Assembly: GCA_025058595.1 (NCBI GenBank)
Contig: JANXEK010000009.1
Span: forward strand, 1-50,994
Source: Candidatus Bathyarchaeota archaeon
GTDB lineage: Archaea > Thermoproteota > CALKCG01 > B24 > DRYS01
Reading direction: 5' to 3'
Length of the DNA stretch: 50,994 nucleotides
Under the pieces are notes generated by a model. The model had not been told where the DNA came from. It did no database searches and was given only the letters and a program-made list of their open reading frames with translations. Below, in pieces: positions 16,563 to 22,173 of this stretch (its first letter is position 1; every line of letters begins with the position of its first letter). The translations under genes were made by a program, and so were the position numbers.

Positions 16563-16952
16563 TCAGCTTAGCATCATGGAAGCTATCCTATTCGCTATCT
16601 TCAGGTATGCTTCGATCTTAGATTGAAGTCTAGGTATATCTCGTTCAACCCTAGCTTCCTGGAATAGCTTCTCCATCTCGTATAGAATGCTTGGAAGACC
16701 TTTAGGTACAACCTCAGCTGATAAGATCCTGGCTACACTTGCCTCTATGAATCTAGGATCTCCTAGTAGATAGTATAATGCAGCTCTAGCTTTGACTATA
16801 CTGCTTAGCAGTAGATCCCTCTTAAGGTTTGAATCGGTAGCCCTAATAGCGTACCCATACCTGCTTTCCGCTTCGCGTATAAACCTGTAGAACCAACTCT
16901 CCCTATAGTATTCGACATAGAACCCAGTCTTCTTGATAGAATCGCTGAACAT
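16563..16952 (-). CDS. Hypothetical helical protein next to aEF1B
   Basis: A 129-residue protein of unknown family. It appears almost entirely alpha-helical, with aromatic-rich YYRESWFYRFIREAE near the N-terminus and KARAALYYLLGDP in the middle. There is no signal peptide, membrane segment or cysteine. It starts 5 bases after the aEF1B stop, so it is probably co-transcribed with that translation factor. A HEPN-like helical bundle is one possibility, but the R-x4-H motif is not visible. Confidence 0.7.
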   Translation of the reverse strand: MFSDSIKKTGFYVEYYRESWFYRFIREAESRYGYAIRATDSNLKRDLLLSSIVKARAALYYLLGDPRFIEASVARILSAEVVPKGLPSILYEMEKLFQEARVERDIPRLQSKIEAYLKIANRIASMMLS

Positions 16953-17546: not shown

Positions 17547-18935
17547 TTACCTCTCCAGGGTTTTCAACGCTTCTAGAATCTTCACACCCTTATCAGATAT
17601 CTGATAGTATCTCCTCCCATCAGATATGTACGATGATATCAAGCCTTCAGCTTCAAGCTTTTCTAGATGCTGGTATACAGCTTGAAGGCTTACAACCCCT
17701 CCGAGATCCTTCCATATATCATATCCATACCTGGGTTTAGATGATAAAAGCTCTAACACCCTTATCTTCATAGGCTTCCCACCGTATAGGATCGTAGCCT
17801 TCCTACGTCTACCAGGTACTTCGATTAGGGTTGCAGTCTTGAGTCCGCTACTAGTAACTATACATACCGTTACATCATCCCTATCGATCATCTCCTCATC
17901 GATAAGCTTCTTAACAGAGGCTACGCTAGATGCACTGGAGAATTCGGCGAATACCCCTTCACATCTAGCTAAGAGGATCATAGCTTTCATAATCTCAGAA
18001 TCTGAAACAGTTAACGCCCATCCCCCCGTATCCTTCAAAGCTTTAACAGCTAGATCCGATAATACCGGTCTAGCTACGAGTAGAGCTTTAGCTCTAGATA
18101 CCTTTCGTACATGTTCCCTGCTTTCAACCCCCCTAAACCTATCCACTATCGGATGCAGAGTATCCGTCTGTACGCATACAAGTCTAGGTTTCGTCTTAGC
18201 TAAGCCGATAGCTTCAAGCTCCCTGAAACCCTTCCATAGGGATACGAGTAGGCTTCCACCACCGACCGGTACTATAACCGTATCTGGTACGCCTAACTCC
18301 TCCCATATCTCGAAAGCTATAGTCTTCAAAGCTTCGAACGATAAAGTATTAAGCTCAGGTGTAGCTTGATACCATCCCTCCTCGTATGCAAGCTTAGAAA
18401 CATAATCTATAGATTCATCGACGTATATCCCATACTCTATGATATCTGCTCCGTAAGCTATCATCTGAGCTAGCTTCCCCTCATCGACGTACCTAGGTAT
18501 GACTATATGCGCATGTAAATGCGCCCTCCTAGCATAAGCGGCTAGCGATGCACCCATATTACCGTTAGAAGCCGCTACTAAATGCTCGAACCCTAGACGT
18601 AGCGCATCTGTAGCCATTATAGAAGCACATCTATCCCTGAAGGATCCTGTAGGATTCCTCCCCTCATCCTTGATGTAGAGATCGCTAAGCTTGAAGAGTC
18701 TACCTAGATTTTCAGCCTTGATAGCGGGTGTGAACCCCTCAGATAAGGTTACTATATTCGAGTTATACCTTATAGGGATAGCCGAAGAGTATCTCCACAT
18801 AGAATGGATATCATGATCTACCGTAAGCCTGTATCCATAATCTCCTGCTTCATACATCAGGATAGATCCGCACCTGATACACCTATCCCAAGGCTTTGCT
18901 TCTCTACTCTCTAAACCGCATAGGGGGCACCTCAA
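17547..18935 (-). CDS. Threonine-synthase-like PLP-fold protein with C-terminal PadR-like winged helix
   Basis: A 462-residue two-part protein. Residues 1-25 hold a zinc ribbon (Cys 3, 6, 19, 22). About 60-385 form a fold-type II PLP domain with SNGNMG (123-128), PVGGGS (223-228) and TSSGLKTA. About 385-462 form a PadR-like winged helix: YGYDIWKDLGG, recognition helix SLQAVYQHLEKLEAEGLI and wing DGRRYYQIS. At the Schiff-base position NPTGSFKDR of threonine synthase, this protein has Arg100 (codon AGG). Either it is a non-catalytic ligand sensor that regulates transcription, or an archaeal subfamily using another residue. Its stop-side neighbour is the zinc-finger gene; it overlaps gatE by 4 bases. 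Confidence 0.85.
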   Translation of the reverse strand: MRCPLCGLESREAKPWDRCIRCGSILMYEAGDYGYRLTVDHDIHSMWRYSSAIPIRYNSNIVTLSEGFTPAIKAENLGRLFKLSDLYIKDEGRNPTGSFRDRCASIMATDALRLGFEHLVAASNGNMGASLAAYARRAHLHAHIVIPRYVDEGKLAQMIAYGADIIEYGIYVDESIDYVSKLAYEEGWYQATPELNTLSFEALKTIAFEIWEELGVPDTVIVPVGGGSLLVSLWKGFRELEAIGLAKTKPRLVCVQTDTLHPIVDRFRGVESREHVRKVSRAKALLVARPVLSDLAVKALKDTGGWALTVSDSEIMKAMILLARCEGVFAEFSSASSVASVKKLIDEEMIDRDDVTVCIVTSSGLKTATLIEVPGRRRKATILYGGKPMKIRVLELLSSKPRYGYDIWKDLGGVVSLQAVYQHLEKLEAEGLISSYISDGRRYYQISDKGVKILEALKTLER

Positions 18936-20836
18936 CGTATACTCCTCCCAACCTCATCTTCGATCATCTTCGCTAACCTAGATGCATCAACCCTGCCTCT
19001 ATACCTTTTCATGATGGATCCAAGTATGATCTTAACAGCGTTCAATCTATGCTTAGCTATAAGCTCTCCACTCCTAGATACCTCTTCTGATACGATCTCT
19101 ACTAGCTCTTCATCCGTCAGAGGTTTTAACCCGAGCTCCTCTAAAGCTTCGGCTACACCGACACCTTTACCCGCCATATGAGCAAGTATATCCGGTATAG
19201 CCTCCTTAAACATCCTCCCTTCTGCTAGAAATCTAAACAACTCATATAACCTATCCGTAGATACCCGGTCTACAGGCACCCCCCTCCTCCTCAGCATAGT
19301 GGTTGTTTCAGTAAGGGTTGAAGCTACCACTGAAGCTGGTAGCGACGGGAAGCTTCTACAAACTTCTTCGAATAGATTCTCGTATATAGAAGCTACAAGC
19401 TCTTCAGCTAGCTTCCGGCTGAGACCATACTCTTTGACATATTTTCTAACCCTTATCGATGGAAGCTCCGGTAGGTTCGATCTCAGATGATCTATCCTCC
19501 TAGGATCGACTACAAGTATAGGTATATCAGTTTCAGGATACATACGTGCAGCTCCAGGTCTAGGACGCATATATCTAGTTACACCTGTAGGTTCAGCCCT
19601 CCTAGTCTCTTCTGGTACACCGTCGAACGCGATAAGAACCCTCTCCGCTACAGCTTTCAACCCATCTTCGACGTTATCTCTAGATCCAGCTGCTATAACT
19701 ATGGCATCTTGATCGGTTGCACCTACAGCCTCCCTAAGTGCTTCAACCTCGCTGGACGATATACCGTACGCCGGAAGCTCATCCGTATGGAATATACCGC
19801 CCAGCCTACCCCAGAAGACGGCGTAATCTGCAAGCTCGGTCCCGAACCTCAACCCTTCGTTAAGCAGCCATGATAGTAATCCTCTAAACCCGGATAGTTT
19901 CAACGCGTAAACTACGCCGCCGCTCTCTAAAGCTCTAGATACAACCTTACACCTAGTCTGTCTAAATATATCTGTTACATCGTAGAGTGTAGGGTCTACG
20001 CTACTCTTAGATAACCCCCTCCTCCTCAGCTCATCTCTGAGTTCGAGTAGCCTAACCTGCCTTCTAACCTCATTCTCGACGACCTTAGGTATGAGGCTTA
20101 GATGCTGTATACCTTTAACCTCGACTAGAGCTCCATCCCTAATCGATATGTTGACATCCTGCCTTATAGATCCAAGCTCGCTTTTCACCTTCCCAGTCGA
20201 TAGTACTATCTTACCTATAGCGAGAGCGGCTGAACCGGCCTCGCTAGGGCTATGTATATCAGGGCTCGTAGACACCTCTACTAAAGGTATACCTAGCCTA
20301 TCAAGCTTATAGTAGACCCTATCACCCCTCCTCTCCACTATACGCGCAGCATCCTCCTCAAGACATATGCTTTGAATACCGATACGCTTCCCCTCTAGAT
20401 CGATCCATCCGCCTAAAGCTAATACACATGTTCTCTGGAACCCTGTAGTGTTTGATCCGTCGATAACAACTTTCCTCATAACATGTATCTCATCTACCGG
20501 TCTAGCGTTTAGCAGAAGAGCTATAGTTAACGCTATATCTACAGCCTCCTCGTTTATACTATGAGGTGGCTCCTCATCCAGCTCGACTAGACATGTAGAT
20601 CTATCATCAGCCTCGTAGACTATAGTTAACCCTTTACGAAATTCGAAGAGAGCCGCAGGATCCACCTCACCAAGTTCGCTTTGGGTAGGTCTAAGCCTCC
20701 TCTCAAACCTAAGCTTAGCCTCTCCCTCGGATAGAGTCGCGGGACATCTACAGAACAATTTATACCTGGTAGCCAGCTGGAAGTGGAGCTCCAACCCTAC
20801 CTTCAATCCTAAAGCTTCGTATTCTAGGCTATCCAT
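18932..20836 (-). CDS. gatE: Glutamyl-tRNA(Gln) amidotransferase subunit E
   Basis: The archaeal GatDE enzyme converts Glu-tRNA-Gln to Gln-tRNA-Gln; GatE binds the tRNA and carries the kinase/amidotransferase cradle. The N-terminus MDSLEYEALGLKVGLELHFQL and DGSNTTGFQRT are diagnostic of GatB/GatE. The AspRS-like insertion specific to GatE is visible around MRPRPGAARMYPETDIPILV. The C-terminal helical and YqeY-like tail (KHRLNAVKIILGSIMKRYRG) is present. I place the start at ATG 20836; a GTG at 20851 overlapping gatD is possible. gatD lies immediately upstream. Confidence 0.95.
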   Translation of the reverse strand: MDSLEYEALGLKVGLELHFQLATRYKLFCRCPATLSEGEAKLRFERRLRPTQSELGEVDPAALFEFRKGLTIVYEADDRSTCLVELDEEPPHSINEEAVDIALTIALLLNARPVDEIHVMRKVVIDGSNTTGFQRTCVLALGGWIDLEGKRIGIQSICLEEDAARIVERRGDRVYYKLDRLGIPLVEVSTSPDIHSPSEAGSAALAIGKIVLSTGKVKSELGSIRQDVNISIRDGALVEVKGIQHLSLIPKVVENEVRRQVRLLELRDELRRRGLSKSSVDPTLYDVTDIFRQTRCKVVSRALESGGVVYALKLSGFRGLLSWLLNEGLRFGTELADYAVFWGRLGGIFHTDELPAYGISSSEVEALREAVGATDQDAIVIAAGSRDNVEDGLKAVAERVLIAFDGVPEETRRAEPTGVTRYMRPRPGAARMYPETDIPILVVDPRRIDHLRSNLPELPSIRVRKYVKEYGLSRKLAEELVASIYENLFEEVCRSFPSLPASVVASTLTETTTMLRRRGVPVDRVSTDRLYELFRFLAEGRMFKEAIPDILAHMAGKGVGVAEALEELGLKPLTDEELVEIVSEEVSRSGELIAKHRLNAVKIILGSIMKRYRGRVDASRLAKMIEDEVGRSIR

Positions 20837-20838
20837 AG

Positions 20839-22173
20839 CTAGGCGTACCACCTGAAACTCGTCCTTCTAAAGATCTCCCCAGCTATATTGGTAAGCATAA
20901 GCCTCCTAGCCTCACCCACATCGTCTACCCTAGCTAAAACCCACATAAGCTTAACCAAAGCAGTCTCCGGAAGCATATCCTCTAACGGTACTACACCTAC
21001 AGCTTGAAGCTCACGTCCGGTCCTGTATACGCTCATGTTGATTCTACCCCATAGACATTGGGAGGTCATACCTACGAATACACCTGAATCCACAGCCCTC
21101 TTAAGCGCTGGTATACACCTACTGGATACATGGCCTAAGCCTGTACCTTCGATTACAAGCCCTCTATAGCCGTCGTCTATATACCACTCTATGATCTTAG
21201 GATCGAACCCAGGATAGAACTTGATGAGTGCAACCCTTTCCTCGAATTCAGCTTCGACCCTGAATCCATCCTCCCCCCTTCTCCTATAATCTTCCGTTAA
21301 CATCTCGATTTTATAATCCCTATAGACGGCTACTTGATCGCTATTGATCGATTTGAAGGCATCCCTTCTACTCGTATGGCATTTACGCACCCTGGTCCCC
21401 CTATGGAAGGCTACCTCATCATCCGATAAACCTTTATGCATAGCTACGACTACCTCTGCGAACGGCGCATAAGCCGCAGCGGTTACCGCACCTATGAGGT
21501 TTAAGGCGGCATCTGAGCTAGGTCTATCCGGAGATCTCTGTGCTCCTACAAGTATCACCGGTACAGGTAGATTTCTTAAGGCGAAACTTAACGCAGCCGC
21601 CGTATACCCCATAGTATCTGTTCCATGCGTTACTATTATTCCATCGATACCCTTCGATACATACTCACCTATCTTATATGCTATGATGGACCAATGCTTA
21701 GGCGTCATATCTTCACTGAATATGTTGAAAACGGTTTCGACGTCTATCCTAGCTATACCTGCAAGCTCAGGTGTGAATCCGTAGAGATCATCCGCCGAGA
21801 ATATAGGCGTAACCGCTCCAGTCCTATAATCCACACGGCTAGCTATAGTGCCGCCGGTACCTAAGATAGCTACACTCGGTAACGTAGCCTTAGCTTCAGG
21901 TATAACCGGTGACTTATACCTAACCTCCCTTCTAGCCGGAAGCTTCTCTACCTGAACCTTTCCATCGGATACCCTTACCCCTATGTTATACCCGCTTCTA
22001 AGCTTAACCACTATAAAATCCTCTCCTCCATACTCGATTCTAGGAGCCAGTACACCCTCGTATACCTCTCCATCCCTAACCACCCTTACTTCATCTCCTA
22101 CCTCCACACCAGCCGATAGAAGTAGCTCTCTAACCCTGCCTTTATAACCCTGGAGGTTAGGATTTCTGTTCAA
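20839..22173 (-). CDS. gatD: Glutamyl-tRNA(Gln) amidotransferase subunit D
   Basis: Asparaginase-like subunit that releases ammonia from glutamine for GatE. The 444 residues comprise an N-terminal SH3-like domain (about 1-80) and an L-asparaginase domain with ATGTGGTIASR-type motif, here ILGTGGTIASRVDYRTGA, and the second catalytic motif IVTHGTDTMGYTAAALSF. VEGTGLGH and TSQCLWGRINM are also conserved. The gatD-gatE order matches the standard archaeal operon. Its start is divergent from the TudS-like gene across a 98-base promoter region. Confidence 0.95.
   Translation of the reverse strand: MNRNPNLQGYKGRVRELLLSAGVEVGDEVRVVRDGEVYEGVLAPRIEYGGEDFIVVKLRSGYNIGVRVSDGKVQVEKLPARREVRYKSPVIPEAKATLPSVAILGTGGTIASRVDYRTGAVTPIFSADDLYGFTPELAGIARIDVETVFNIFSEDMTPKHWSIIAYKIGEYVSKGIDGIIVTHGTDTMGYTAAALSFALRNLPVPVILVGAQRSPDRPSSDAALNLIGAVTAAAYAPFAEVVVAMHKGLSDDEVAFHRGTRVRKCHTSRRDAFKSINSDQVAVYRDYKIEMLTEDYRRRGEDGFRVEAEFEERVALIKFYPGFDPKIIEWYIDDGYRGLVIEGTGLGHVSSRCIPALKRAVDSGVFVGMTSQCLWGRINMSVYRTGRELQAVGVVPLEDMLPETALVKLMWVLARVDDVGEARRLMLTNIAGEIFRRTSFRWYA

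Follow-up and report, generated by a model that had tools for sequence, protein, structure and literature searches.

The window, that is, the whole stretch of 50,994 nucleotides that was analysed, comes from a genome assembly of a Candidatus Bathyarchaeota archaeon. It carries an ORF of 462 amino acids with a TTG start, whose product we predict to be a PLP- or vitamin B6-responsive regulator. The gene, called the fusion gene here, and its features are as follows.

20839 to 22173, minus strand: gatD, at the head of the gatD–gatE–fusion run (context).
18932 to 20851, minus strand: gatE, upstream of the fusion gene in the same operon and overlapping it by 4 bp (context, outside the mechanism).
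17547 to 18935, minus strand: fusion gene, encoding a zinc ribbon, a threonine-synthase-like PLP fold without the Schiff-base lysine and a PadR-type winged helix.
18870 to 18929, minus strand: zinc-ribbon-like CxxC...CxxC at the N-terminus (C3, C6, C19, C22).
17853 to 18752, minus strand: fold-type II PLP domain (residues 62–361; PF00291, PALP, 237.8 bits).
18636 to 18638, minus strand: codon AGG of Arg100, at the Schiff-base lysine position in the motif NPTGSFRDR.
17571 to 17759, minus strand: PadR-type winged helix (residues 393–455; PF03551, 37.4 bits, cut-off 27).

The order gatD–gatE–fusion is repeated in two relatives (L070 and L071). In the window's class the fusion gene lies behind gatD–gatE, and the transporter gene described below (the S gene) is located elsewhere. 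We discarded the neighbours in the window (gatD, gatE, a zinc ribbon, aEF-1beta and TiaS) as a functional clue, these being housekeeping genes with no link to B6. A 129-aa ORF at 16563–16952 had no match in Pfam or NCBIfam; its position beside aEF-1beta is kept in L070.

The AlphaFold2 model of the protein, a confident one (pLDDT 89.8, pTM 0.78), has a loose linker at residues 368–386, followed by a winged helix with helices at 389–399, 404–410 and 417–429 and a wing at 433–446. Linker and helix together make up about 95 residues (368–462), and the DNA-binding domain proper spans about 388–462; an earlier note, made from the sequence alone, had rightly seen a PadR-type winged helix at the C-terminus but had put it at about 78 residues. 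In an alignment of 50 sequences, K390, G404, Y421, Q422, H423 and L427 of this region were invariant. The four cysteines of the zinc ribbon, an element common to the archaeal threonine synthases analysed here, were invariant in alignment A1. The best Foldseek matches of the model were all threonine synthases (6nmx, 2zsj, 6cgq; E about 1e-28), and identity to the closest solved threonine synthase chains was 31–36%. Both Pfam and Foldseek assign the PLP domain to fold type II, and the protein is indeed distinct from the GntR/MocR fusions, as the earlier note had it. From these features we propose that residues 62–361 serve as a PLP-sensing domain and the winged helix as a DNA-binding domain. The closest relative with a name (L070, a MAG labelled Bathyarchaeota) is 76% identical.

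An NCBIfam model of the same architecture exists, NF004170 (PRK05638), under the name threonine synthase. The window protein matched it over residues 1–457 with 409.1 bits, below the curated cut-off of 421, and a relative in the same genus scored 423.8 bits. This nearly full-length match, like the solved structures found by Foldseek, would suit a variant threonine synthase that functions with Arg at this position or with a lysine moved elsewhere. However, the top-scoring NF004170 members that we sampled (L023 and L024, about 700 bits) themselves carry Arg at the lysine position, and the name therefore looks wrong. Moreover, among the five PALP genes of the window genome is the second, lysine-bearing thrC that the earlier note had suggested looking for (C63, NPTASFKDR). 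It adjoins ORFs resembling homoserine kinase and homoserine dehydrogenase, which argues against the fusion being the threonine synthase of this genome.

The pocket was compared with a set of 18 threonine synthases (ThrC). The active-site residues are Asn87, Lys116, Arg160, Gly187, position 189 and Thr317 in what we take to be Thermus threonine synthase numbering. The contacts to PLP were kept among 81 fusions: Asn87 in 73, Thr317 in 76 and Gly187 in 79, with Gly at position 189 in all 81. In the window protein, the other PLP-domain motifs pointed out in the earlier note are kept too. Lys116, at the substrate-phosphate site, was kept in 80/81. Arg160, which also contacts the substrate phosphate, was replaced by T, S, V, A, F or Y (Ser in the window protein), and Arg was not among the seven commonest residues at this position in the 81 fusions; the ThrC set itself has Arg there in only 10/18. 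The substrate site of the fusions may be altered. The Schiff-base lysine, present in 18/18 ThrC proteins, was found in 31/165 fusions. The alignment contained no conserved lysine in the PLP domain that was specific to the fusions, every conserved one being conserved in ThrC too; the two lysines conserved in fusions only, K390 and K409, both lie in the winged helix. This speaks against the earlier suggestion of a relocated lysine. Since the PLP contacts are kept and a substitute lysine is missing, the fold probably still holds PLP, though not through the usual bond.

Fusions are widespread. We collected 165 distinct proteins from Thermoproteota, Asgard archaea and archaea labelled Thermococci. 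The residue at the lysine position was R in 99, K in 31, L in 15, I in 11, M, S and V in two each, and F, T and N in one each, so that 134/165 were devoid of the lysine. A fusion was found in 7/7 genomes of the window's class, representing three families, and Arg occupied position 100 in all seven. Arg100, noticed first in the window protein, is thus a genuine feature; because it is kept in relatives, AGG as a sequencing error for a lysine codon, which the earlier note had considered, can be rejected. The Leu, Ile, Val, Phe, Thr or Asn found here in other relatives are hard to reconcile with a variant enzyme, an explanation that we regard as highly improbable. With a cut-off of E ≤ 1e-100 for NF004170, fusions were present in 55/398 sampled Thermoproteota genomes, and in many Asgard genomes as well. 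This cut-off undercounts them, given that 5/20 control loci chosen as fusion-free turned out to contain a diverged fusion. These five (L245, L248, L253, L254 and L256) lie near an S gene, score 334–418 bits and have I, L or M at the lysine position.

In a phylogenetic tree the fusions formed one group, with one long-branch ThrC falling inside it, and the lysine-bearing forms made up two clades nested among lysine-less fusions. The earlier idea that R100 plus a winged helix define a clade therefore holds in part: R100 does not, while loss of the lysine plus a winged helix nearly does, the two Lys clades being the exception. One early loss followed by two regains would be the simplest history, and several losses could also explain the pattern. 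Alternatively, the Lys members (Lokiarchaeia, some Bathyarchaeia) might be trigger enzymes that both catalyse and regulate, and the Lys-less ones only regulate. The 31 lysine-bearing fusions are consistent with this, as is the fact that a Lys fusion was the only thrC-like protein found in 6/7 Lokiarchaeota genomes (G400–G406). However, these forms are nested among Lys-less ones, and a Leu-type fusion was likewise the sole thrC-like protein in another genome (G398); being the sole such protein therefore does not show catalysis. We consider trigger enzymes rather unlikely; for the window protein, the proposal is compatible with a role as regulator. Genomes G400–G406 may reflect either threonine auxotrophy or a dual enzyme–regulator.

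The genes around the fusions pointed to vitamin B6. Clustering of the neighbours of 64 fusion genes revealed one membrane protein that recurred in 38 of the loci, an ECF-transporter S component (PF07155, 93–131 bits). In a wider count of 145 distinct fusion loci with enough flank, this S gene lay within 1.5 kb of the fusion in 107 and pdxS, beside pdxT, in nine; no locus had both. The genes pdxS and pdxT encode PLP synthase. The S gene and the fusion gene were arranged co-directionally, divergently or convergently, and EcfA-like and EcfT-like genes came next in some loci (L113, L125–L127, L205, L216). In two Heimdallarchaeota loci (L108, L119) the fusion gene is divergent from pdxS–pdxT (PdxS 427 and 433 bits, PdxT about 203), and pdxS–pdxT adjoins the fusion in seven more Asgard loci (L189–L193, L196, L198). 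This linkage to B6 genes rather than threonine genes is a further point against a variant enzyme. In three Thermococcus-labelled contigs (L105, L106, L110), from genomes without pdxS, the fusion lies between a proteasome-subunit/exonuclease-like pair and a ribose-5-phosphate-isomerase-like gene.

There is one setting in which threonine genes do appear. In seven loci of a single bathyarchaeal family (L036, L037, L042, L045, L073, L075, L077) a normal thrC adjoins the fusion on the opposite strand, an arrangement that may be left over from the duplication or may point to regulation. Such adjacency would suit a threonine synthase variant, and it would equally suit a regulator that senses threonine or O-phosphohomoserine and controls threonine genes, as might the origin of the sensor fold from threonine synthase. 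Against the latter, Arg160 is replaced (with the reservation that just 10/18 of the ThrC proteins compared have this Arg), and in neither L073 nor L075 did we see a copy of the operator described below ahead of the fusion. In addition, across the wider set of loci the fusions are linked to the S gene and pdxST, and pdxS is missing from most of the genomes that have a fusion. We rejected a threonine operon regulator on the grounds that the adjacency is confined to one family and that no operator copy was seen upstream there. Sensing of threonine or O-phosphohomoserine thus appears improbable. Of the two ligands in the earlier note, an amino acid has weak backing from these loci, and PLP, as sensed by a transcription regulator, is backed by the neighbouring genes, by the joint occurrence with B6 genes across genomes and by an operator conserved in front of those genes.

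The distribution of the S gene tells what it may transport. Among 398 Thermoproteota genomes, 188 had the S gene and 187 pdxS, 166 and 165 having one alone, 22 both and 45 neither. This exclusion had a Fisher value of 7e-44, calculated ignoring shared ancestry; because the genomes are related, such values overstate independence. Within one genus (g76), four genomes had pdxS alone and four the S gene alone. Of the 55 fusion genomes, 53 had the S gene and 5 pdxS. In the window's class, pdxS was not found in any of the seven genomes, the window genome included; most genomes are MAGs, in which a missing pdxS may be an assembly gap, yet it was absent from all seven. The S gene also occurred in 135 genomes without an over-cut-off fusion, and the transporter therefore does not need the fusion.

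These patterns had to be weighed against import of another micronutrient (the thiamine precursor HMP, riboflavin or folate) by the S component, with the fusion as its sensor. PF07155 bears the name riboflavin S component, and the S gene gave weak NCBIfam matches to S components for folate and riboflavin. In many bathyarchaeal loci the gene after the S gene encodes an AIR-synthase/HypE/ThiL-like ATP-binding protein (PF00586/PF02769), and 18/64 fusion loci have it in the vicinity (cluster c2; for example L072, L076, L078–L082 and L088). A ThiL/HypE-like gene at this place would fit another micronutrient; the protein is possibly a B6 vitamer kinase or another salvage enzyme. HmpT, an ECF S component binding pyridoxamine, provides a precedent for B6 uptake, and whether its substrate is HMP or B6 was long open (PMC4860826). 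We used thiC as a control for general auxotrophy. The exclusion of S gene and pdxS held in genomes with thiC (4e-18) and without it (3e-13), and the link between S gene and thiC vanished among genomes lacking pdxS (odds ratio 0.99); on this control we rejected a thiamine link of the S gene. Furthermore, pdxS–pdxT takes the place of the S gene in nine Asgard loci with the same operator type. A sensor of another micronutrient is thus very improbable, and the S gene of the PF07155 group most likely encodes a B6 importer.

Inverted repeats were found in the promoters of these genes. Upstream of pdxS in Heimdallarchaeota we found TACAAGTT-N2-AACTTGTA; the S gene of Lokiarchaeota is preceded by TATAAGTT-N2-AACTTATA, frequently as tandem copies. 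The consensus TAYAAGTT-N2-AACTTRTA had its locus-best site in the target promoter in 47/53 Asgard loci, compared with 3.2 expected by area. The target promoters, 20 kb in all, contained 30 sites that matched it at ≥ 15/16 positions; the other 461 kb contained none. This consensus was partly drawn from the loci on which it was scored, and for that reason a Heimdall-only pattern was rerun on the Loki loci: the repeat from the Heimdall pdxST promoters had its best site in the S-gene promoter in 23/26 of them (1.3 expected).

The operator differs between clades. Its Bathyarchaeia form is GTATAGTT-N2-AACTATAC; the repeats read TTAAAGTT in Desulfurococcaceae, TTAAAGAG/TTAAAGTT in the window genome and TAYAAGTT or CCTATATATAGG in Asgard archaea. 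The core AGTT-N2-AACT was present in 57/111 S-gene and 6/11 pdxS promoters versus 26/4788 background windows (0.5%). The repeats overlap TATA-like sequence close to the start, and an AT-rich sequence of this kind could partly be ordinary promoter; however, the core was seen in 0/20 S-gene promoters from genomes without an over-cut-off fusion. Beside the diverged fusions among these controls, 4/5 promoters contained CCTATATATAGG-like palindromes.

The window genome (G000) has a single S gene of the fusion-linked group, outside the window at C64:30307–31053 (252 bits; L229 1808–2554). Directly before it are two tandem 20-nt operator-like copies (C64 operator, CTAGGATATTAAAGAGTAAACTAGAATATTAAAGAGTAAACTTTAATATC); the second carries a perfect 9-bp inverted repeat, ATATTAAAG-N6-CTTTAATAT. 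A pattern made from this site and its Desulfurococcaceae counterparts, searched on both strands with up to two mismatches, matched four times in the 5 kb around the S gene, with 0.03 matches expected. Its left half-site does not follow the strict core, which makes this single case weaker than the Asgard set. Two other genomes of the class (G003, G004) carry TTCAAGTT-AA-AACTTAAA in front of the S gene. The region preceding the window fusion gene itself yielded no convincing operator, as expected inside the gatDE operon.

Taken together, we conclude that the fusion is very probably a one-component regulator of vitamin B6 supply, probably a repressor, made from threonine synthase. It would have arisen when a duplicated threonine synthase acquired a winged helix at its C-terminus and lost the lysine needed for catalysis. 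PLP, or the phosphate of another B6 vitamer, is most likely held non-covalently by the PLP fold, which would pass the cofactor level on to the winged helix. This helix, in turn, is predicted to bind the inverted repeat with core AGTT-N2-AACT over the promoter of the S gene or pdxS–pdxT. Because the repeats overlap TATA-like sequence near the start, we infer repression; PLP would then most likely be a co-repressor, uptake or synthesis being shut off when PLP is plentiful. The target in the window genome, which lacks pdxS, would be the S gene on C64. More generally, comparison of the genomes makes it likely that archaeal PLP sensors derived from threonine synthase are widespread, having lost the lysine and probably regained it in two clades. 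In Asgard archaea, Bathyarchaeia and Desulfurococcaceae they would use a single operator type to control both the uptake and the synthesis of B6, and in the window's order they would do so at related sites.

If true, this would provide an archaeal vitamin B6 regulator and, in the product of its partner gene, an archaeal ECF-type B6 importer; B6 transporters have been described as mostly unidentified (PMC9997740). The hosts of the family include the closest archaeal relatives of eukaryotes. The name threonine synthase is probably wrong for NF004170 proteins, and predictions of threonine and vitamin auxotrophy that rely on it would be distorted. The residues at the lysine position (K, R, L, I, V, M, S, F, T and N) also offer a natural series in which to study the role of a PLP fold freed from Schiff-base chemistry. 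A literature search, which left most subscription journals outside, retrieved no description of a threonine-synthase–winged-helix regulator.

Compared with known families, the fusion shares with ThrC (TIGR00260; PDB 1uim, 1v7c, 2zsj, 6nmx) the PLP fold, the PLP contacts and the archaeal N-terminal zinc ribbon, and differs from it in the replaced Schiff-base Lys, perhaps in the substrate-phosphate Arg, and in the added winged helix and the linkage to B6 genes. NF004170 has the architecture of the window protein, winged helix included, under a name that differs from our reading. With PadR regulators (PF03551) the fusion shares a winged helix scoring over the Pfam cut-off; its ligand domain is a PLP fold, whereas they have a short C-terminal dimer helix. 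HmpT, a bacterial ECF S component taking pyridoxamine, serves as a functional precedent for the putative B6 importer encoded by the archaeal PF07155 S gene. A parallel in design is MocR/PdxR, in which a GntR winged helix is joined to an aminotransferase domain; control of pdxST and of transport genes has been reported for this family, which is reportedly not present in Archaea (PMC5320631). As in PdxR, a winged helix is fused to a PLP-enzyme fold, pdxST is adjacent and the operators are made of repeats. This placement is seen at family level: fusions lie beside pdxST or the gene of a probable B6 transporter and have an operator of one type in common with them. For the window genome the linkage is in trans only, via the S gene and its operator-like repeat. 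Unlike MocR, with its fold type I domain and N-terminal GntR helix, the fusion has a fold type II domain, mostly without the lysine, and a C-terminal PadR-type helix. In bacteria, apo-PdxR activates pdxST and PLP acts as an anti-activator (PMC5320631), whereas we propose a repressor with PLP as co-repressor. The best explanation is therefore an archaeal regulator that would work like MocR/PdxR but is unrelated to it.
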